From: Perkinsus chesapeaki
Lineage: Eukaryota; Perkinsozoa; Perkinsida; Perkinsidae
Length of the DNA stretch: 33,432 bases
Direction: 5' to 3'
Assembly: GCA_013115145.1 (NCBI GenBank)
Contig: JAAPAO010000393.1
Span: 1-33,432, forward strand
Shown here: positions 1,658-33,138 of the stretch, in pieces
How positions within the stretch are numbered: the first letter of the stretch is position 1
Layout: each line of letters starts with the position of its first letter
Program-made: the position numbers and the translations under genes
Notes under the pieces: generated by a model
Databases searched by the model: none
The model's input: only the letters and a program-made list of their open reading frames with translations
What the model was told of the DNA's origin: nothing

Positions 1658-3818
1658 ATGAGCAAGACCTATCGTGTGCTCATTGGAGGGAAGCTGGGGT
1701 CTACGACTCGGTACTTTCCAAAGCACAACCCGGCCAATGGAAATATGCTCGGGAATGTAAGTCATACTCTCATTTTCCCCAAAACCTGAGTTACTATAAA
1801 TAATCAGATTCCGGAAGCGACTCCTAAGCAAATTGACGCTGCAGTGGCGGCCGCTCAAGAGGCGTTCAAGACGTTTGGCCATACAAAAAAAGCAAATAAT
1901 TTTTGACTGTTGTGATTTGTAACATGCATGCCGTCAGGATGAACGGATCCCCCTACTTCTGGCTTGTTCTGAGGCCATTATGGCCCACTTCACTGAGTTG
2001 GCAGAGCTGCTATGCAATGAGCAAGGAAAGCCGCTGTCTAACGCAAGCAAAGAAGTCGAATGGGCGGCCAGCTGCTTTAAGAAAGCTGCGAGGGTAGGCT
2101 CAAAACAGGTTCCCGAATTCGACGACATAGCTATTGATTGCTAGTTATGTCAGGCGCATGAGAATGAGAAACATTTGTCAGATACCGATCCCGATCAAGC
2201 TCCTTCACGAAGATGGTTCCTGCAGAGTAGAAGTTCGCCATCGACCGGTCGGTCCAGTAGCCGCGATAGTGCCTTGGAATTTTCCCCTCGGAATCGCTGC
2301 TTGTAATCATCATGCAAGCGACGGCTCGGAATGATGGGCTCTCCTAATGTCAGCAAGGGCGGCAAAGGCGTTGGCTTTCGGTAATCCAGTGATCATCAAG
2401 CCATCACCTCAAACCCCGATAACTGCCCTTCGTCTGGGGGAAATCTTGGGCGATATTGTGCCGCCAGGTGTTATACAAGTTGTCACTGGATCTGACTCTC
2501 CGGTGAGCTGCATTATTCGTCTTCCGTCTATTATCTTTCCCGCAGGGTGAGTTCAACGTTGGAGACTACTTGGTACGCCACTCTGGTATTCGCAAGGTGT
2601 CATTTACAGGAAGTGTCAAGACGGGTAGGAAAGACAGTGTCACACCTGACTGACTAAAAACCTCAATCGTGATGCGCTGATGTCAAACGTCACTCGTTCA
2701 GTACAATATTCAATTGTCGAGCCGCTCTATTAATCTATTTGTCCTAGGAGCTCAAGTTTAGGTAAAAGCGTGTTGGCCAGCTCCGTGAATGACCTGACAA
2801 GATGCACTTTGGAACTGGGTGGAAATGATCCGGCAATTGTTTTGGCCGACGCCGACGTTACACAAGTCGTGACCCCAATACTGAGGGCAGCATTCATGAA
2901 CTCTGGACAGGTCGACTTACAGTCTCCTGAAGGTCAGTTCTGACTCTAGTTCTTGTATGTAGGTTTGCAGTGCCATCAAGCGTATCTATGTGCATGCTGC
3001 AATTTACGAGAAGTTCGTTGAAGCAGCATCGATTGAAGTAAAGAAGCTCAGCAGTCTTGTGGGTGATGGAATGGACCCAAACGTTAAGTGAGAAACGTTT
3101 CCTTTGGCGTCTAGGCCTTAACCATTGTGATATATCAGGTATGGTCCTATTAATAATGAGATGCAATACAACAGGGTCCGAGAGTTGGTCGCAGATGCTA
3201 CCAGTCATGGAGGCTGCGTGGTCCAGGGAGAACTGCACGCGAATCTTCCCAAGAATGGGTAGGCATTACTCTCGAAAGCGAATCCGCTCGTATCCCTCTA
3301 AGGTTCTTCATGGCTCCCGCTATCGTCACCGGCATTACTGATGGAGTCCGTCTAGTGGATGAAGAGCAGTTTGGGCCAGTCGTGCCGATAATGAAGTCAG
3401 CGTATTACTTAGTTGTTAAGATGACTGTAAACAGGTACACGGACGAGAGTGAAGTTATTTCTCGTGCTAATGGAACCCCTTATGGATTATCGGCATCAGT
3501 GTGGGGGAGTGACAGTACCATGCTCAATCGAGTAGCTGAACAGATCCTTGCTGGAGTCGTTCATATCAACAGTCACGGACCGAGTAAGAGATTCCTCCCA
3601 ATAAGGAGTTCCTCTCATGATCCAAATTGGATCATCCAATATCAAATGACCCTTCGCGTCCTGTTTCTACTGGTTTATTCATTGACTGTTCAGGAGCGAA
3701 TTATGATAATCCTTTCGGTGGATTCAAGGACTCTGGACTTGGTCGAGAGGGCGACTACTCGGATGCCGATCTCCTTGCCTATACTGAGATGCAAACTATA
3801 GCTGTTGCCATGCCATGA
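1658..3818 (+). CDS. Aldehyde dehydrogenase, tandem copy 1 (12 exons, 482 aa)
   Basis: NAD(P)-dependent oxidation of an aldehyde to the acid. Exons: 1658-1756, 1808-1891, 1938-2093, 2182-2302, 2354-2502, 2546-2624, 2762-2910, 2963-3087, 3139-3258, 3303-3395, 3435-3583, 3694-3818; the sum is 1449 nt, the usual family length. Visible signatures are PWNFP, the KPS cofactor motif, FTGS, catalytic base Glu247 in LELGGND, nucleophile Cys281 just after an intron (GQ/VC), EEQFGPV and NPFGGFKDSG. The NSGQVC-AIKR-YVH style and YGPINNEMQY place it near bacterial AldA-like/succinate-semialdehyde-type ALDHs; the substrate is unknown. No targeting peptide is seen, so a cytosolic enzyme is likely. The start ATG is the first in exon 1 and matches the position used in copy 2. 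Intron 2 (1892-1937) begins with GC, not GT. Confidence 0.93.
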
Positions 3819-5376: not shown

Positions 5377-7496
5377 ATGAGCATGGTCTATCGCATGAGT
5401 AACGGAGGAAAACATATATCGACTGCGCAGCACTTTCCGAAGTACAACCCAGCTAACGGAGAACTACTAGCAGAGGTGGGTGGGCTTCTCGTTCCCTTCA
5501 AGCAGTATGTCCGTTATTATGTTACCTTTACCGACTAGGTTCCGCAAGCTACCCCCGAACAAGTCGACAGCGCTGTTGCGGCCGCTCAAGCCGCATTCGA
5601 GACGTTCAGTTGCACGAAGAAAGTGAAATGCGTCTCGGTTGTCAAAGATAGCGGGCATGCTGTCAGGAAGAGAGACACCCAACCTTGTTGGCCTGCTCGG
5701 AGATAATTACGAATAGATTTGCTGAATTGTCAGAGTTGTTATGTAAAGAGCAGGGAAAGCCTATATCTTCCGCTCAGGAAGAGGTTGAATGGGCAGCAGA
5801 CTGTTTCAAGAGAGCAACAAGTGTAGGCCAGAGAGCGCGTCGCCGATTCGTTAACAAATCCAGGGTGGCTTGATTATCAGATATCGATACCTACCAAAGT
5901 CCTGTATAGTGACGAAGATTACAGGGTCGAGGTCCGCCACCGCCCGGTCGGCCCGGTCGCCGTCATAGTGCCTTGGAATTTTCCTCTCGGAATTGCAGCC
6001 TGTAGTTCTCATAACGGCCATTACCAAGGCCGAGCAGTACGTTGCTTCGTTTCAGTCCAGGCGGCACGGGCCATGGCTTTCGGTAATCCAGTGATCATCA
6101 AGCCATCACCTCAAACCCCGATAACTGCCCTTCGTCTGGGGGAAATCTTGGGCGATATTGTGCCGCCAGGTGTTATACAAGTTGTCACTGGATCTGACTC
6201 TCCTGTAAGCTGCATTATTCGTCTTCCGTCTATTATCTTTCCCGCAGGGTGAGTTCAACGTTGGAGACTACTTGGTACGCCACTCTGGTATTCGCAAGGT
6301 GTCATTTACAGGAAGTGTCAAGACGGGTAGGAAAGACAGTGTCACACCTGACTGACTAAAAACCTCAATCGTGATGCGCTGATGTCAAACGTCACTCGTT
6401 CAGTACAATATTCAATTGTCGAGCCGCTCTATTGATCTATTTGTCCTAGGAGCTCAAGTTTAGGTAAAAGCGTGTTGGCCAGCTCCGTGAATGACCTGAC
6501 AAGATGCACTTTGGAACTGGGTGGAAATGATCCGGCAATTGTTTTGGCCGACGCCGACATTACACAAGTCGTGACCCCAATACTGAGGGCAGCATTCATG
6601 AACTCTGGACAGGTCTGACTTATAGTTTCTTGAAGCTGCCAGTTCTCGTATGTAGGTTTGCAGTGCCATCAAGCGTATCTATGTACACGCCTCACTTTAC
6701 GAGAAGTTCGTTGAAGCAGCATCGATCGAAGTAAAGAAGCTCAGCAGCCTTGTGGGTGATGGAATGGACCCAAACGTTAAGTGAGAAACGTTTCCTTTGA
6801 CGTCCAGGCCTTAACCATTGTGATATATCAGGTATGGTCCTATTAATAATGAGATGCAATACAACAGAGTCCGAGAGTTGGTCGCAGATGCTATCAGTCA
6901 TGGAGGCTGCGTGGTCCAGGGAGAACTGCACGCGAATCTTCCCAAGAATGGGTAGGCATTACTCTCGAAAGCGAATCCACCCGTATCCTTCTAAGGTTCT
7001 TCATGGCTCCCGCTATCGTCACCGGCATTACTGATGGAGTCCGTCTAGTGGATGAAGAGCAGTTTGGGCCAGTCGTGCCGATAATGAAGTCAGCGTATTA
7101 CTTAGTTGTTAAGATGACTGTAAACAGGTATACGGACGAGAGTGAAGTTATTTCTCGTGCTAATGGAACCCCTTATGGATTATCGGCATCAGTGTGGGGG
7201 AGTGACAGTACCATGCTCAATCGAGTAGCTGAACAGATCCTTGCTGGAGTCGTTCATATCAACAGTCACGGACCGAGTAAGAAATTCCTTCCAATAAGGA
7301 GTTCCTCTCAAATTTCAACATGAAAGGGCCCTATGCGTACTCTTCACATATTTGGTTCACTGGTTGTTCAGGAGGGGACTATGACGAGCCCGGCGGAGGT
7401 TTCAAGGATTCTGGACTTGGTCGAGAGGGAGACTACTCGGATGCCGATCTAATTGCTTATACTGAGATGCAAACTATTACTGTTGCCACTGGATAG
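5377..7496 (+). CDS. Aldehyde dehydrogenase, tandem copy 2 (12 exons, 482 aa)
   Basis: Same family, exon number, exon lengths and intron phases as copy 1. Exons: 5377-5475, 5539-5622, 5667-5822, 5881-6001, 6056-6204, 6248-6326, 6464-6612, 6656-6780, 6832-6951, 6996-7088, 7128-7276, 7372-7496. Catalytic Glu247 and Cys281 are present. Exons 5-7 and most of 8-11, with their introns, are nearly identical to copy 1, while exons 1-4 and 12 differ at many positions. In the last exon the conserved NPFGG of copy 1 reads EPGGG, so the Phe of this family motif is lost; activity may be altered. Intron 2 has a normal GT donor. The reading frame is intact, so this is a gene and not an obvious pseudogene. 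Confidence 0.92.
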
Positions 7497-15061: not shown

Positions 15062-15665
15062 TCAACTATATCTCAGCCATAGTATGACTTCTTCTGCTTC
15101 GCTCCACTCATCCCAATCATTCACTTTTCCACCCTCTGCCCCTCCATCAAAGGAGACCTCAATGTCATACACGAATTCAGGGTCATCTGGTCGAACCTGA
15201 CAAAACAGACATGGCCAGTTCACGGACTCGTGACGCCTAACCTGATTCTGCTTAAAAGTAACTTCCATCTGCGCCTTAACTTTTTGTAGTTTATCATCTC
15301 CGAGTTTATTCAGGTCTCTCTCCTCTGATTCTATCTGTTGCTCTTTCCCGCTTCGAGGAGCTCCATCTCTCAACCTTCTCACCAATCCAAGCAACTATCA
15401 CACCGAAATCGAATACTGTTACGCAACAATTTACCTGCTCATCAGATATCAGGTGTCGCGGTAGATAGTCTCGGAACCGCTTCCTCAATCTCTGAACTAT
15501 TTCTTCGGGATCAGACTGGGCATCAAGCCTCGGCAGAGGCATCCGCCTGTGATACAATTTCCCGTTCAATTTAGCGAACTCGAGGACGAGTGTAGGAGTC
15601 GGTGTGTAGAGTAAACCGATTCGTCTCGGCCTTATTGGGGACTCGTCATCTCCATACGAGGTCAT
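15062..15665 (-). CDS. CEP19: CEP19-like centrosomal/ciliary protein (three exons, 172 aa)
   Basis: CEP19 sits at the mother centriole/basal body and in animals helps recruit RABL2 and IFT to cilia. Exons 15665-15435, 15394-15242 and 15196-15062. The diagnostic C-terminal block is present: ERDLNKLGDDKLQKVKAQM, then DDPEFVYDIEVSF followed by a Trp/Asp/Glu tail, matching the same block in animal CEP19, and the length is close to the human 160-170 aa. The N-terminal part (LVLEFAKLNGKLYHRRMPLP) also fits. The second intron (15241-15197, 45 nt) contains no stop and is a multiple of three; removing it restores the family alignment. It implies a flagellated stage. The gene is the last of a minus-strand array and its start is 115 bp from the stop of the CMTR2 gene. 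Confidence 0.88.
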
Positions 15666-15780: not shown

Positions 15781-18700
15781 CTAGTGTTGATAAAGCTTTC
15801 GCTCTCGTATAAAATCAAGTAGCTGAGGGTTCATACCAGTCACCCCTCCTTCCGGCGCCGCAGCTATGGCAGATCTTATCCGAGTTGAAGACAACGCTGG
15901 GTAAGGATCTGAATAGTCTTCCGCCACCGACACCTATAAAGGTCAACAATTCGCAAAGGGCAAGGGAAAGCTTCACCTACTTTTCGACGGATTCTTGGAG
16001 GAACCTCTTCAACAGCAGCCTTTAGGGGTTCGGTGTTCTGTGACCTCGGGAACACCAGAATGCTGGTGTCAAGATCGGCAAGCCCAATGAAATGGCGTGT
16101 GGTCTTATCTCGTGTACTCCCCTTTAAAGCCTTCATGAAGGAATCCTCTCCGCATAATATCATCGGCACAAGTATGTCAGTGGTCTTGGCAGCCATATCC
16201 CCGACAAGGGCATGCGCCAAGGCCTCTCGGTCGGCCCAGCGTTGGCTGTTCCTCGAGTAACCTGACGCGACTGACACTCTATCGCCTACGTCTGAGGCGA
16301 TGACGCGTTCTCGAAGCAGTTCCTGTCGGGTGGCAAGGGCGGAGGCTTTCGGCTTGGAAGGGTTGTTCTCAGCATTCGCAACCAGTATGACAGAAGACAC
16401 CAGACCATTAGACAACGCGTGCTCGACGACTGCCCAGTGGTTCTCGTGGATCGGGTCGAAGGTGCCGAAGAAGACGCCGACAAAGGTTGTTTTAGCGTTC
16501 TCGAAGGTGAACCGCTTCAATCCTTGCTCGGCAAGGTACCCCAAGGCCACCGTACGGGAAGTAGCCTCGATTGGCGATGTGAGCCAATACCTGAGTGAAG
16601 GTGAGGGACGCGCATAGATGGGGGATGCCTACCTGGCCTGGTTTCTAAGGCAGGTCTCGTTGACATCCCCGAGCCACTGACGAAACGTGGAGTACCTTAG
16701 GAGATTAATTCTGGATCGTCAGAAGACGGGTCAGAAGTTCGGTATTACAGTGTGCAAGTCATCGGGGCCAATGGCGTGGAAACATCCCCAGCGGCCAGGC
16801 TATCCCGCAGAGCCCTCAAGCTCGACTTTGCTCGACCGCCGGTGAGCCGACCGATACACACAAGCCAGCTGCTGCTCCTCAGTACAGAGGTATCTGACGC
16901 GGGAGCAAGAGTTCTGCTCCACAGGATCTTCCCCGATTCCTCACCTGAAGACGGCTGGACAAGTTTCACCTTGTGGAATAACTGACCAAGGCGAAACACT
17001 ACACTGCCGACCCACACGGCCACCACTGGGGCGGCCCCAATCTCTAGCAACAGTACGCTCGAGTGGTCCATGGCAAGAGCTTCAATGCCTTCAATTGCCG
17101 ACTCCAGCAACACTTTCCGGGCCGCGGGATCGAACTGACTATAAAACGGATCGACAAAGATCGTCGGATCGCGCAACGCCCTCACGCTGACGTGAGCAGT
17201 GCCAGCTGCGGGAGCGGGGTGGGATGCAGAGTCCCAAGTAGAGACATGGTCCGGATCGATGCCCACATGTTCTCTGAGGAGTTCCGACACTGTCGTTCGC
17301 CTGCATTCCTCCAAAGTTAGAGAGCACGTCACGGCGTCACCAATCGCTCTTGGCGGGATCGTTGGAAACTTATCGAACCGTATAAGCCTCTTTCGGACGA
17401 GATCTTTAAGCTCTTTTGCATTCCAAACCAGAGGACTGTAGACCACTGAGCTTGACGTGGGAATCTTGCGGTTGTTGTGGGAATCGAAGCCCGTCATCCT
17501 CCTGTAGGCCCCTGGGCAATCAGAGATCTGTTGTGTTGTCAGAATCAGCTCAGGCCACTCTGTAGAGGGTGAAACAGTGGGCCGTGGAGCTCCAGTGGAC
17601 CGTTCGTCCACGCTGGTCAAGGTGAAAGCAGCGCCGCTCGGTAGTTTTTTTCGGAGACCCACAAGGGCCACGTCCTCGTCATGAGCATGAACCCTATCAG
17701 TAACGGTGCCACGACTGACCCTCCTGCTGTCCACACCTCCAAGTCGACCAGCAGTGTCGGACGACAACAGGGGCTTCACCGATCTCAGGTCACACTTGTC
17801 CGGTAGGAGCTTAGAGACGTACTCGGCGATGGAACTCGAGGATGTCTTCCGTCTCTTCGTGTAGGGATGAGGGTCCGAGTCCTCGACATCTCGCCACCTC
17901 GCCAACTTGCCTTCAATCGCCGATGCCTGCCGACTTGCCAGCGATACCGCAGCCTGCTGGGCCGCAACGATAAACTCACCAAGACCTTTACCAGGGCAAG
18001 ACGGAAGCTGGAGCTCCCTCGTGGGGTCTGGACACGCTGGATATGCGAGCGTGAGTCACGTGGCCGTACCTTGAAGACCAAGGAAACCCTTTAGCCATTT
18101 CGCATCATCTTTGGCCAGGCCACGGAAGCCCAGACAAACCCAGTACCTATGGACACAACATTGCCAACTAAACAGCGACAGAGCCCCTACGTCTCACTGT
18201 TAGCAGGCTTGCTTGCCGCTGGCTTCACTATCTCGATCTTGTCGAACATGGAGCCAGCCAAACACAGTGCAGCAACAGTAGAGTCATCAAGGAGGGAATA
18301 CGCCTTCATAACACAGGAGCCACCGGCACCCAGCAGTCCAATGGCCAGAATAAGTTCTCGAACAATAAGGGGAAGGCAGAGACTCTCTTGCCTATACTAT
18401 TAGTTGATTCAAAGAGTCTGCTTCGCCAAAGGCCTACTTATTAGGGGCATACTGTACGTCCATGCTACCATCAGCCGTAACCAGTTGACACTTTCCTTCA
18501 GGTGCCCTACAACTATACCTGGACATCACTATTGGCTACTCGGATGGTTGAGAGGGAAATCTCACCATCTCCACAAGTCTTGGGCAGCACCTGCTTGGAG
18601 AATATTTCCGGAACCATCTGGGCCCGTCCACCTGAGGGAAGTGATAAGCCTGATGGAGACCAAAGTCTACCAGCGGTCCTGTGTCCTGCGATATAAGGCG

Positions 18701-19305
18701 TCATCGTCGACCATTTGCTCGAGGTCGTTCCCCTCATAGTAAGGGTTCAACGAGGCTCCCATCCACTTCCAGTCAGCCCTCGGTCTCGTAAGGGCTGAGC
18801 AAATCACCTTCACAAGCTACGCAGCGGTGATTACACAGATAAACGTTGAGAGCTGCGACGAAGCCGCCAGGGCACTCGCAGAGGTGCATGGTCCGGAGGG
18901 TGGCGGAATCTTGCTCTTCAGGACCAAGAAGCGATGGCCCGAATGTCGACAGTACTTCATAAAACTTAGCCCAAGCATTGTTGATCAGTGGCGCGTCCAC
19001 ACCAACTCGAGAACGTATCTGATACCGGTAAGGCAATCTGTATGAACATGTCGGCCTACTACCTCTTTGGTGAGGCCGTCAAGAGCATTATGGTGCTTAG
19101 AGAAGGCCCGCCACTCAGAGATGTCAACAGTGTCTATTTCATCCCTTGCTTTATTGAGGCGGAAACGGGCCTTCTCGACCGCATCATCTGCCGAACTCTT
19201 CCCCATCTTTTGTGAAGGTGCTTGCAGCAGCCCTCCTAACAAGCTCGAATCGTGCGGTAAATTGGGCAAGGGCAGTCGGAGGATCTCAACAGTTGGTTCG
19301 GCCAT
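15781..19305 (-). CDS. CMTR2: CMTR2 cap-2 ribose methyltransferase joined to an NMN/NaMN adenylyltransferase-like domain (11 exons, 1026 aa)
   Basis: Exons: 19305-19063, 19018-18835, 18794-18671, 18631-18566, 18518-18438, 18391-18191, 18146-18070, 18027-16749, 16695-16633, 16590-15981, 15933-15781; total 3081 nt, every phase agrees. The first part is CMTR2, which 2'-O-methylates the second transcribed nucleotide of mRNA using SAM. It has AWAKFYE (Lys99), the SAM site MHLCECPGGFVAALN, LNPYYEGND, LVTADGS (Asp222), GGSCVMK (Lys262) and KPANSE (Glu299), matching the K-D-K-E catalytic set. Residues about 400-750 hold a second Rossmann-like domain (LVQPSSGEESGK), as the non-catalytic one of animal CMTR2. 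From 753 on a nucleotidyltransferase follows: GTFDPIHENH (815-824; the usual HxGH is HxNH) and SSTRIR (991-996). Two genes are the alternative: see findings. The splice acceptor for exon 8 at 18037 is also possible. Confidence 0.85.
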
Positions 19306-19561: not shown

Positions 19562-22500
19562 TCAATCGGCCGCAATCTCATAGCCGATAGTCGAAGACCC
19601 GAGCCATCGCTCTGACTCTGCCACTGAGCAGTCACGTCGTGCGGAGTAGTCCGCCACTTGGTCCTTATTTATCTGTCCAACTGCGAAGTACTTTGCCTGA
19701 ACGAAGTATGTAAAGCGGAGGCCGCAAGTACTCACTTTTCCGTGGGCAAAACAGAGGGCGCACACGCTGGCTGCCGGTTGCATCATCAAAGATTCTGTTA
19801 AGACCATTTTACCCTGAATAAAAGTGTATCCTCGCCAACTTGGCATCGACCTTACTCCAGAGAGGCTCTCCGCATCCAGTAGCCTCCAAAGGGTTTCCTT
19901 CTCTCGGTGATCCGGTTGAGTTGGGTAGCCCGGGGCTGGCCGGATCCCAACGTATTTCACCTAACCGCGAAGATGCCACCAACATAGAGCACCTGGGCTC
20001 GACCTTAAGCATGTCCGAGAGCGATAGGTCCTCCTCTGGTACATAACCCCAAAACTGTGGGTCAGTACGTATCTTGTGATGAATGAGCTCCGCGAAAGCC
20101 TCTGCCAGGCGGTCAGCCAAGGCCTCCAGCATAATGGACTTATCTATGTCATTAGTAGCATCATAAACCTATTGTACCATGGAGAGCTTGAACGACGTTA
20201 AGATATACGCTCACTTTCTTCCGCTCCGCTACACCAACGCCTGCTTGACAGCAAAACATGGCGATGTGATCTGGCAGACCGGAGGACTCTGGGGCTACGA
20301 AATCACCTACAGTGCAACCGACTGTTAAGTGAGACCTGCGGATGAGCTAACCAAGAGCGAAGGTCTGATCCTGCTCGGTGTCCAGCTGCTGGCGAAGGCC
20401 ATAAAATGTCTCGATAAGATCACCTTCCTCGGAGAGGACCTACGAGGATCTCGCGCCGCTATCTGTTGTAATACTAGTTAGCTACTACCTTAACATCATC
20501 TCCAGACCCACATGCACGGTACACCCCAACAACTGCCGTAGCGCATATCCACTTCTCTCGAATAACCGTAGCGAGCAATTCCTAAGTGTACAGTTTAAAG
20601 AGGCGGTGCTCATCACCTCTACCTGGGCTTCCTCAAAGAGCTGCTTAGCCTCCTCACCAACCCTTTTATCGTCGAATATCTTCGGGTAGTCTTTATTAGG
20701 GTACCGTCCACGCAGCTGATATACCTGTTCAACCACAGCAGTAGGTAGAACAAGAAGCAGTGTAAGTCTTATGAAAACATAGTGAAGGCCTGCTAGGAAC
20801 ACTTGGGCACGCCGTTGTGCGGTCAAGTTACGGTTACGTCGTCCAATATATCTATGAACCCTGACCTGGAAGAATGGTGTCCAGTCTATATATTGGCTGA
20901 TCTCCTCCAGTGAGTAGTTGTCCAGGTATGTGTTACCAACCCTTCTAGGCGCTGGGGCTGGAGGATACTTTGCAAAGTCGATAGTGTACCTGAGAAAGAT
21001 GCCTACCTACGTCGCTCAATGGTATTAATGTAGGAACCCATAAAGGCTATTAGCTACCTCATCTTCCTAGCCTCATGTATAGGAAGCCATCTCTTATCAA
21101 CAAGTGTACTATAATAGTCCTCCCTCAAGGCATCATACTCCTCCTTTATATCCTCCATATACTCTATCTGACAACACGACAACCAATAAGCGCTACTGCA
21201 TTATGAGGGCCATGCCCTCCCAAGGTGGTTTCCCTCCCTTACGGCTAGTCTCCGTTTCCCTCAAAAGTACTAGGTGTTATGTAATTACTTACAGATCAAT
21301 ATTCTACATCTGCGCATCCCTCGCCCGGCCTACCCGCCGCTCAGGGTTCTGTATCAAGCTATTAACAACAACCACACTCCTACTGGCGTCCAGTACATGG
21401 ACCACTCCTCCTACAGGCACCACTCCCTAAAACACCACACAGTTGAAGGCAGCCTAACTCCTCGGAGGACCTTCTCTCCCGACCGCTCGCTCGCTTCGTA
21501 CTGCGGCCATATCTTCACTGCTGTGTGCTTACGGCTGGTCGTAGCACCTCCGATGAGCAAGGGGATCTGCATGCCCTCTTTTCGCATTTGCTGGGCTACG
21601 AATCTGCCATCGCATAACTGGGGATAGGCCATGCCCACCGCTGCTCGCTCCTACACCATCTCATCAAGACTAGGCGTAATTAAGCCGCTGAGACCAACCA
21701 CGTCAGCCTTCTCCTCCTGGGCTTTCTTAAGTATTTGGTCACATGGCACCATAACACCCATATCGATAACCTAACAAAAAACAATTACCTCCGTAATGTC
21801 CATCTTGATCAAGATATCCGATGGACCTTCCAGCATATCGACAAGGTAAGCATACAGAAGAACTCCAATTATTGATGATGCAGAGCAATGAGCAATCAAA
21901 CTTGACCTATTCGGTGTTGTTCCGCATTACCAATGACGAAGTGTATAATGTAGCCTTGTCGTCATCCTCCGACCCCAAATGCAGAGGATGCCTTCAAACC
22001 CCTTACCCTGAAGTTGTTGCAGCCAAGGACCACTCCAACGATATTCTTACCAATATCATGCACATCACCTAACATCATACACCATAAACCATCTCCCTGG
22101 TATATAGTATCTTACCCTTTACAGTTGCCAAAAGTACCGTACCATTCCAGTTGGGACGGTCGGGGTCCAGACCCTCCTCTAGGGCCTTACGTCTGTTCTC
22201 AGTTTCCATTATCGGTACTAAGTGCGCTACGGCTTTCTTCATCACCCTAGCAGACTTGATGACCTGAACACGACTGTTATGCTGATGATGCTGCTCGAGC
22301 CGCCACACCTCACCTGTGGGAGGAACATTTTTCCTGAACCAAAGAGATCACCAACCACTGACATCCCAGCCATTAGAGGACCCTCGATAACCTGAAAGCA
22401 TAGTACAAGCCAATAACAACAACCCGCTGCTGTTCCTGGCAGAGCCGCACAGCCCTCGGCAGCCAGAAGGCGTTATTACCTCCAAGGGCCGAAGTTGAAG

Positions 22501-26432: not shown

Positions 26433-29400
26433 TTATCTCCTGCTACGGTCTCTCGAATCGCTTCTATCTCTTCTAGACCTGCGGGATCTATCACGGGAGG
26501 AGGACCTCGGACGGGCGTAGCGGCCTTCACGACTACGAGAGCGATCATCTCTGAGGAAGCAAGAAATGCTATCACCAAACCATCGCCAAAAGCCTCAAGA
26601 TTTCTTAGCGTCGTGTACTATAGCCGAGTCATCTACAGTAGTAGTGAAGACTGAAATGTACTCGAGACAGTGATGTCAAGACTTCATCGAATAGATCCCC
26701 ACAGTGGCTCATTAGTTAGGGACGACCCTCTACAGTAATAACCATTCGTTTATTATTTTGGGGTCCTTATAATACCCTTACTAATACTTATTACAATAAC
26801 CCACTGCTAATTCCTTCCGCTATTATTACCTGCTTCTGCGGTCCCTAGGACTAGCCTCCCTTCTCCTACTAGATCTACGCTCCGACTCCGATCTCGATCT
26901 ACTACGCCTCCTATCTCCACTGCGTGATCGACTGCGTCGGCGGCGGCTGCTATCTCTCGGACTCTCAGACCTATCTCTCTTGGGAGGTGACATCGGCTCC
27001 ACATCACTTCCCTCATCGACCTTCCCATTCTTCGAAGGCGACTTCTCGTCTGATCTGCGTCTCGGGCTATCCTTATCCACCGAAGCCGGGCTTCTGGCCC
27101 TATCGTCTTTACGCACAGATCTATCGCGCGAAATAGACCTGTCGCCACTGCGGGACATAGACCGTCCGCCACTCCTTGAGCGCCTTCTCTTGCGCTCCCT
27201 CGGAGATCTGTCGTCACCAGAGCGAGATCGGCGCCTAGAGCCACTTCTAGACCTTCGGGCTGCCTCAGCTTCCCTGGCAGCTCTAGCCTCCCGTTCCTCG
27301 CGCTCCCTAGCCTCCTGTTCCTCTTTCTGTTTGGCCAACATAGCGTCCTCCTCTTCAATGGATGGTAGGCCTAGACGCTCGCGACGCTTGGTCTCTATCT
27401 CAGGGTTACTATGGCGATTCAGGAACGGGCGGTGAATACCTCCTTTACCTACGAAAATAATTTAACAAGGACAACTGCACTACTACTAAATAAGAACAAT
27501 ATAAGCCATACATATAGTCCACATCAAACCACCACTATAGAGTTTAACAGCAAGTGCACTGTCCCATGCAGCAATGGCTATACCATATCTACTCGTTATA
27601 TCACAAATGATATCATAATATAGTCCCTCAAACCCAATTCCACCTTTATTACCTCTTTCTTTATCCTGTTCAATCTTCCTATGTATCCTGCCCCTAACCA
27701 TCTCCTCAGCATCATCTCTACGTCTCGAATCATAACAGAATATCAGCAGCCTCGGAGGAGGTCCATCTCTTGGACGCCGACGAGCTCTCTCTCTATCATC
27801 CCTCCAACTCGAATATCCCTTCCCCTTTCCTCTGCTGCCCCAACCACCTTTCCCTTTACCCCACCATGGACCATCAGATCGGACAAAGCTCTGATCGCAG
27901 CCATCAACAAAGCAAAATGTACCAGTGCGCTCTTCAATAGAGCGGAGCTCGCTGCCTTTATGACCGGTGATGAAACCGATGTATTCCTCTGGAGTCTCAA
28001 CTGCCGTCACATCCTCCCGGCCCTCCAATTTCACATTAACCTACCAGAACACTTCCACACATACACTAAGGAACAATTTCCAAAGTGAGAGAGATTTCGG
28101 CAAACTTAAGGCACCGACGCCTTCGAACTGCATCTACTATGGATTATAACGCATGACGAGGCCCCTCTATATTTTGCCAGAGCCCCTCATCTTCATGGTA
28201 GATACGTTGAGACTCGAGGTATATAGTATATCCATGCAAGACACATATAAGGCTTACACTTGCGGAGGCCCCAGACCAGACTATAACAGATCGAGTAGGA
28301 CAGTTAGAAACACACTTTCCGGAGGCGATTTCGACTGTACGACATGACCAGTTTCCCCTTTCTCCCAGCTCACCTCGCCTTCACGTTGATCGAGCAAGAA
28401 GTTGAGATAATCACGACCCCGGCGCCTCTCTGGCTTACTTCCAGAGATGAATGCCGTATAACCGATGTATCTAAACAAAACCAAACCTTTACCGACAGCA
28501 ACGGGTGAACCACAGCAAAATGAATCTCCTTTATATATTCTTATGCTTCGCTCCGCTAAGATAAGTGGAATATTTCCTTCCTCCACTGGGCACCTACTCC
28601 TCAGCTATTTTCAATCATGGTGATGGTGAATTCGATTAGTCCCTCGATCCCGCGAAATCGTCTCCGATCGAAGAGCATGATGATCTTTTCGGATTGAGCG
28701 TCTCCTCCTCCTCCGCCCGATCTTCCTCCTCTCAGTCCATCTCTCAAATTATCGATCACATTGTCATTCCACCAAATCACTGCCACCACTTTACTCAGTT
28801 TCCACTGACGGACAAATCGATCAACATGGCCCCGCCACTGCCGTCGTCCTATCTCCGTCACCCCCATCCCTAATAAACCCCTTATATTCCCCCAGCCTAC
28901 TCAATAATAGCTCCGCTGGCTCTCTCCAACTTCTTCCTAGTAGCCCCGCGCCTTCCCAGAGCGTAAGTAAACTGTGCCTCCGTCCTGCCAACACATATCC
29001 ACAGCAATCCCCAGTAAAAGTAACCGCTACATTTTAACTGTTGTTAGTCCGAGTTTGCCGCCATGAGTGTCATCCAGGTTCCATCTCTCGCGATGGTCCA
29101 AAAAGAAGCCCGGAGACTTGGACTCGATCGCCGACATCAACTGAGCTACCATATTGCCTATCACAGCCTCCACTCCTTCACCTTCAGTTGTGCAATGCGG
29201 CGTCCTCGTGTGGGCCCCAGTATAATAAGCTTCTCGATCTCATCAGAGCGGCCTCTGACTCGTGGCCCAGCGTCCCCTCCAACGTCCTTATCTGAACCAG
29301 CGGCGGTAATGCAGTATCTCAGACTCCCTATCACAAGTCTACCTTGGAAGAACATAAGGGTTTCTGTCTCCTCCTCTAAAGCATGTAGAGTAGATCTCTC

Positions 29401-32309: not shown

Positions 32310-33138
32310 TTATCGTGGAGGGGCTGCCATCGCACGGTCCTTCACTACTACCTCGGTAGCCCCGCTCTCCTGTGCTACTCTCGAGATCGAATGGCGCTGT
32401 AGGAGGGCCTTTGCCCGCTCTGTCACCGCTGGGTCGGACTTCACAGGCAGTACCGGCCGAGGCGCTGCTGATAGGGTTGATGGCGCTTTAACGTGCCGCC
32501 ACTTGCAATTGTTTCCAGCGCGGCAACTGCCATGCCAGAAGAACCTATAGATGTTAAAATGACTGATGGATCAGACGGAGACGACCTACTTGCAAACATC
32601 TGGTGGAGGCCCTCCTTGGCTATTGGGTGCCGACTCTGGTAGGTGATGCGAGAACCGACAGGAGCTGCCATTGCGGCAGTTACCGTGGAGGAAATAAGTG
32701 CACACTACCGCCTTGTAATCATGTCGGAAGGGACAGGAGGAGCCATTACGGCACATACCTGCACAGAGGCTCGAAAGGCACCCAGCAACCAAGGCAAAAA
32801 TAGTCCAAAGCTGAATAATTGAACCACCCATGTGCCGATTACCTTTCACAAAGAAACGACAGAGCGGTTGCTCCTCGGTCACAGCCCCTTGCGGTGGGGC
32901 TGGTGATGCTTGGGGACTGCTCCTCTCAGGTGCCGTCTCCTGCTCTGGTGCAGAGCCTTCCGTATCTTCGACAAATAAAGGGCCTAAATAACCATAGTAG
33001 GCCACGACGATCATTGACATGAGACAGCCGGCCGATCTTACCGCTGTTACCAGCTACTGGCGGTGCCTGCTCCTCTCTAGCCCTCTTTTCTGGAGACGAC
33101 TCTGCAGCAGATTCTGGGGTATCGGAGGAACGCTTCAT
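32310..33138 (-). CDS. Triple CCCH zinc-finger protein (four exons, 213 aa)
   Basis: Exons 33138-33042, 32983-32843, 32758-32590 and 32544-32310; introns of 58, 84 and 45 nt; phases agree. Three CCCH fingers of the C-x7-C-x5-C-x3-H type are seen: Cys74-His92, Cys99-His117 and Cys135-His153. Fingers 1 and 3 are each cut by an intron and appear only after splicing. The linker before finger 1 is Pro/Glu/Ser-rich; after finger 3 a basic, mostly helical tail follows. Fingers of this spacing usually bind RNA, often in mRNA decay, export or splicing. No other domain such as RING is seen, so a makorin is unlikely. Its stop is 111 bp from the PKA-R start. Confidence 0.88.

Follow-up and report, generated by a model that had tools for sequence, protein, structure and literature searches.

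A CMTR2-type cap methyltransferase gene of Perkinsus chesapeaki whose reading frame continues into a NadD-like nucleotidyltransferase domain

The locus and its gene model

Perkinsus chesapeaki is a clam parasite, and the stretch of its genome analysed here (the window) comprises the 33,432 nucleotides of contig JAAPAO010000393.1 in GenBank assembly GCA_013115145.1. The gene of interest lies on the minus strand at 15781-19305 and was reconstructed as 11 exons, from an ATG at 19305 to a TAA at 15783-15781, separated by ten introns of 39-53 nt, all of them GT-AG. Spliced in frame, it gives 1026 codons plus the stop, with neither frameshift nor in-frame stop, and both parts of the encoded protein sit on one gapless stretch of the contig. 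This anatomy, including the two introns that flank the junction of these parts (intron A, 16748-16696, 53 nt, and intron B, 16632-16591, 42 nt), had been put forward in the original prediction and was reproduced. As to intron sizes in the genus, those of P. marinus genes span 39-1622 bp according to PMC3101222, most being shorter than 100.

Exons 2-6 (18147-19018 with their introns, minus strand) encode the larger part of the catalytic FtsJ domain, which spans residues 94-307 and reaches into exon 7, whereas exon 8 (16749-18027) would provide a linker and the second, degenerate methyltransferase-like domain of CMTR2. Then follow intron A (16696-16748, phase 2), exon 9 (16633-16695, 63 nt, YSTFRQWLGDVNETCLRNQA), which putatively encodes the last helix of the C-terminal domain of these methyltransferases, and intron B (16591-16632, also phase 2). 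The core of the nucleotidyltransferase domain (15874-16475) is distributed over exon 10, an intron at 15980-15934 and the start of exon 11, and the remainder of the gene (15781-15873) encodes the C-terminal end of that domain, IAAAPEGG...LLDFIRERKLYQH, and the stop. For intron 7, a 33-nt choice with a worse acceptor, which led to 1029 codons, was dropped for the 42-nt form that gives 1026 and is backed by the EDPRLELR of a Perkinsus olseni protein (P0002, see below); the Pfam domain positions given here refer to the 1029-residue version.

The donor of intron A creates an in-frame TAA, at which a reading frame followed without splicing would end. Six of the ten introns are in phase 2, and in all six, intron A included, the donor itself forms an in-frame stop (TAG, TGA or TAA), so that the TAA with which intron A opens gives no indication that the gene stops there. 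It was also confirmed that no in-frame ATG lies between intron A and the nucleotidyltransferase core; the last earlier one is found at 16762, which is 14 nt before intron A begins, and might be the start of a shorter product.

Directly upstream on the same strand there is a methionine-synthase activation-domain gene (19562-21006; PF02965 at 20485-21006, 7.3e-8), the end of whose frame was named by eye and lies 256 nt before the CMTR2 ATG. A CEP19-like gene (15062-15665, minus strand) starts about 115 nt past the stop of the gene described here and, considered by itself from its own initial Met onward, gives a match to PF14933 (4.6e-26). Elsewhere in the window, aldehyde dehydrogenase exons (PF00171) occur on the plus strand at 3160-3801, 5827-6252 and 6853-7323, the first and the third of which are nearly identical by eye and thus probably represent a recent tandem duplicate. 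The minus strand also carries an RS-rich frame (26826-27461), a KH-domain frame (27486-28040; PF00013, 5.2e-5) and a CCCH zinc-finger frame (32586-33053; PF18044, 2.1e-12).

The two halves of the predicted protein

With the spliced protein as query, five proteins were found at E 0.001 among 7997 scored candidates. One of them, with 98% identity across 98% of the query, is the database entry of this very locus (P0001, 1178 aa, named 'FtsJ methyltransferase domain containing 1 [Perkinsus chesapeaki]'); two are partial P. olseni proteins (P0002 and P0003), 64% identical, and the other two come from rotifers (P0004 and P0005). P0002 aligns over the junctions of exons 2-6, and both P. olseni proteins align with exon 8 up to their ends.

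In the Pfam search, the first half of the spliced protein matched PF01728 (FtsJ) at residues 94-307 with 75.8 bits (E 5.4e-21), and in the PDB it is related to a viral methyltransferase (E 1.1e-21) and to human CMTR1 (3.1e-10). The FtsJ domain contains the conserved motifs LCECPGGF, LNPYYEGND, MVDDD, TADGS and NSETYWVCLGFRG. We take K99, D222, K262 and E299 to occupy the positions of the K-D-K-E tetrad, by alignment with K117, D235 and K275 of human CMTR2; D222, K262 and E299 are invariant in an alignment of five proteins and K99 in one of three. Three of the human tetrad residues are named in PMC9479742. To judge by its sequence, then, the first half is an enzyme of the CMTR2 type whose active site is intact, and the identity first assigned to it holds, on the grounds of the FtsJ domain and the tetrad.

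An inactive C-terminal methyltransferase-like domain is described in PMC6414751 as a defining feature of CMTR2, needed for activity in mammals. In the P. chesapeaki protein, the C-terminal region encoded by exon 8 had no Pfam match, and a PDB sequence search with residues of the C-terminal domain returned two matches, both unrelated. A human CMTR1 segment compared with the parasite's own genome gave three matches, of which the best is the CMTR2 half of the present gene, and the end of exon 8 together with exon 9 fits a CMTR1-type tail profile weakly. The protein has in common with CMTR2 (FTSJD1) an FtsJ domain with the tetrad, followed by a putative methyltransferase-like C-terminal region, but differs from it in the addition, in frame and C-terminally, of about 215 residues resembling a nucleotidyltransferase.

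This added domain matches PF01467 (CTP_transf_like) at 815-999 in the 1029-residue numbering (E 1.4e-5, 25.7 bits, above the cut-off of 21), and the general model TIGR00125 was likewise passed (28.6 bits against a cut-off of 27.7). Its motifs GTFDPIHENH, LCGEDS, SSTRIR and LLDFIRERKLY follow each other in the same order as in E. coli NadD, with which it also aligns at the C-terminal end, so the predicted NadD-like core in one frame with the CMTR2 half is borne out. Is it then a genuine NMN or NaMN adenylyltransferase, making NAD or NaAD beside the cap enzyme on one chain? The best specific NCBIfam model is indeed TIGR00482 (NadD/NMNAT, E 2.8e-8), with which it shares the order GTFDPxHxxH, GxDS, SSTxIR and C-terminal xLY, and NadD structures took ranks 1-3 when an AlphaFold2 model of exon 10 alone was compared with the PDB in Foldseek. 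Nonetheless, its 34 bits are far under the TIGR00482 cut-off of 112.45, and the fold-search matches (E 0.012 or worse, none at E 0.001) come from a poor model (pLDDT 42.8). Moreover, SSTRIR is intact but HENH stands in place of HxGH, and the FPTWYEY segment of E. coli NadD, which we take to hold the nicotinate ring, has no clear counterpart, the alignment (three sequences, low identity) showing no tryptophan that matches. An AlphaFold2 model of P0001, built with three alignment rows, was set aside (pLDDT 29.9).

A better NMNAT candidate exists in the same genome, on contig C378 (2544-3034, minus strand; L015, L017), with the motifs GGSFDPPTLAH ... WVVPCGNRPDK ... IGSDLPPTLPDW ... ISST and, as a rough composite of exon pieces, 78.2 bits on TIGR00482, which is also below the cut-off. 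Ordinary NAD synthesis is probably carried out by its product, and a NAD-making role for the domain on the CMTR2 chain, as originally suggested, is left unsupported and appears distinctly unlikely. Further superfamily members lie on contigs C68 and C369 and, read by eye, are an ethanolamine-phosphate cytidylyltransferase and a phosphopantetheine adenylyltransferase. Given these members and the separate NMNAT-type gene, the domain joined to CMTR2 is best regarded as an extra, divergent nucleotidyltransferase.

The second domain alone had no homologue at E 1e-3 among 2717 candidates of about 151-480 aa, and within longer proteins (7994 scored candidates of about 480-1526 aa, all sharing exact words with the query) only P0001 appeared at E 10. 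Among genome contigs, peptide patterns of the domain retrieved 52 stretches containing no relative, and the codons for FDPIHENH a single stretch with no open reading frame of at least 80 aa on the matching strand. Viral contigs gave no relative with the second domain as query (7 stretches), with the CMTR2 alignment (82) or with E. coli NadD (3), and no stretch at all with the FDPIHENH codons; plasmids gave no match. This absence of relatives in the searches made, together with the low score, HENH and the attachment to a cap enzyme, sets the domain apart from NadD/NMNAT.

One chain or two genes

Are the two halves made as a single protein? The database entry P0001 carries the same join, and the fusion is in this sense already visible: NCBI and UniRef name the joined protein as CMTR2 (FTSJD1) type, by an automatic model. 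The original prediction knew of no described CMTR2-NMNAT fusion, which agrees with the literature searched, where none was found among the matches listed (most subscription journals lie outside that scope). P0001 is itself rejected as a three-domain model, since an intron of about 136 nt (15836-15701, by eye) removes the NadD-like end with its stop and leads into CEP19; a further 14 residues (GQLFHKVKLVQPSS), to which P. olseni P0002 has a counterpart, are missing from it as well. Because of these two faults, the wrongly added CEP19 and the residues dropped, P0001 is no independent proof of the fusion. No orthologue spans the join, both P. olseni proteins stopping short of it. Their ends lie within about 10 residues of each other, just before the join, on contigs of 3455 and 3594 bases.

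The exon between introns A and B bears directly on the question. In human CMTR1, and likewise in the CMTR1-like part of rotifer P0004, the chain extends beyond the last Rossmann strand to a helix-like end (EFTDYMIRSNESHCSLQ in human, QFQQYLADTSQRLLQRE in the rotifer), and exon 9 reads FRQWLGDVNETCLRNQ in the frame of the fusion. On adding exon 9, the local alignment score rose from 28 to 52 with P0004, a value reached by 2 of 2000 shuffles of the exon, and from 28 to 41 with P0005 (11 of 2000), while the pairwise alignment with human CMTR1 gained nothing (24 with and without it; 2000 of 2000 shuffles as high). A tail profile built from these three sequences gave 4.8 bits when exon 9 was included, against -0.4 when it was not, and only 2 of 4000 stop-free peptides of the window (4241 being available) equalled the higher value; when exon 9 was shuffled against the same profile, none of 1000 shuffles reached its score, which was 3.8 bits in this case. 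Spliced into either of the other two frames, or with the intron retained, the sequence failed (-0.2, -1.4 and -1.5). With an earlier, longer profile a fragment scored 2.3 bits with exon 9 and -0.9 without, and this stretch within the whole protein -2.1. Human CMTR2, to be taken as a lead, reached 17.8 bits on the three-sequence profile, and its pairwise local alignment with the window ends before exon 9. The reading of exon 9 as the final cap-methyltransferase helix, with CMTR2 continuing through intron A, has moderate support from these comparisons, and the frame that stops at the TAA, which had been regarded as full-length CMTR2, is probably incomplete, since the exon that follows looks like the final helix of such enzymes.

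Splice sites were scored with matrices derived from eight further introns of this gene. Donor and acceptor together gave 8.1 bits for intron A and 11.5 for intron B, while the eight themselves, one at a time being omitted from the matrices, ranged from -0.2 to 10.5. Among the 103 GT-AG pairs in 16950-16450, intron B is second and intron A twelfth, and the top pair (16632-16527, 15.1 bits) suits neither a fusion nor two genes; the scores therefore allow intron A without singling it out. Codon bias is positive for exon 10 in the frame of the fusion (0.10 per codon, against -0.33 and -0.37 in the other frames) and poor for exon 9 (-0.15), still the highest of its three frames. Across codons 755-811 it is average, 51% of 1184 stop-free frames being as high.

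The same region could instead hold two adjacent genes, with CMTR2 ending at the TAA in the region of 16747-16745, where intron A begins, and a nucleotidyltransferase gene running from an ATG at 16666 or 16615 through one intron, its mRNA perhaps bearing a spliced leader. From the ATG at 16666-16664 (within 16660-16666, minus strand) eight models arrive at the core in the right frame by way of a GT-AG intron 30-120 nt long, and from that at 16615 seven, the resulting 15 all being one-intron models with an AUG start. The claim that a separate gene could begin only within CMTR2 was consequently too strong, as these ATGs lie in other frames, although what they require is less good: the best of their introns (16632-16523, 7.4 bits) is 110 nt long, against 39-53 nt for the others in the gene, and its acceptor is weak (-2.4 bits), the seven other distinct ones score 3.2 or less, and all eight fall below introns A and B. 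Two genes would also leave the match of exon 9 to a cap-methyltransferase helix to chance. On the other hand, genes of the same strand are tightly packed here, the methionine-synthase-like frame ending at 19562 and CEP19 beginning near 15665 (by eye), the automatic annotation over-joins at this locus, as P0001 illustrates, the join lacks orthologue cover, and exon 9 adds nothing against human CMTR1 or human CMTR2 in pairwise alignment. Spliced leaders, furthermore, occur in Perkinsus according to PMC3101222. Balancing these points, two genes seem rather unlikely.

Far less credible is an artefact of assembly or annotation, by which the parts would not be adjacent in the real genome, or a decayed gene. 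There is a single assembly, and the searches made turned up no relative for the domain, but both parts share one contig, the frame is open through 1026 codons and exon 10 has coding bias; such an origin is very improbable. What the DNA itself establishes is a continuous frame with two domains and their catalytic motifs, whose spliced form is, among the frames tested, the only one to fit the helix. We consider it fairly probable that a single gene encodes one CMTR2-nucleotidyltransferase protein of 1026 residues, the join being known from one genome.

Possible roles of a joined protein

Made as one chain, the protein would consist of a CMTR2-type cap-2 2'-O-ribose methyltransferase (residues 1 to about 780), with an active-looking FtsJ domain followed by a degenerate domain closed by the helix of exon 9, and of a divergent NadD-like nucleotidyltransferase domain (residues about 812-1026). 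It would methylate caps, while the added domain might bind a nucleotide such as ATP, and might then either pass a nucleotidyl group on to some acceptor or, as a module that senses nucleotides or binds RNA ends, tune the methyltransferase. The reading preferred here is a CMTR2 with an added nucleotide-binding module, which may be enzymatic or regulatory. Since the inactive C-terminal domain of mammalian CMTR2 is required for activity, a module attached at that end could tune cap methylation.

A coupling to NAD caps is speculation, considering the score far below the NadD cut-off, the lack of a relative and the NMNAT-type gene elsewhere, and NAD capping by the fusion protein is possible but unsupported. 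A bolder version would make it a cap enzyme of two chemistries, one half methylating the cap-adjacent ribose and the other adding or sensing an adenylyl or NAD-type group on RNA ends or spliced-leader RNA, which would link the cap state to the nucleotide or NAD level in perkinsids; this we regard as very unlikely.

If the chain is single, it represents a CMTR2 domain arrangement not found described in the literature searched, in a genus where spliced leaders can occur on mRNAs, and a physical tie of cap 2'-O-methylation to nucleotide or NAD metabolism becomes directly testable. If there are two genes, the locus is a caution, with a public annotation that strings three unrelated domains into one protein. 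The bdelloid proteins P0004 and P0005 likewise combine a CMTR2-type domain and a further module in a single chain; in their case this module is a CMTR1-like unit of G-patch, FtsJ and WW domains and not a nucleotidyltransferase as predicted in P. chesapeaki.
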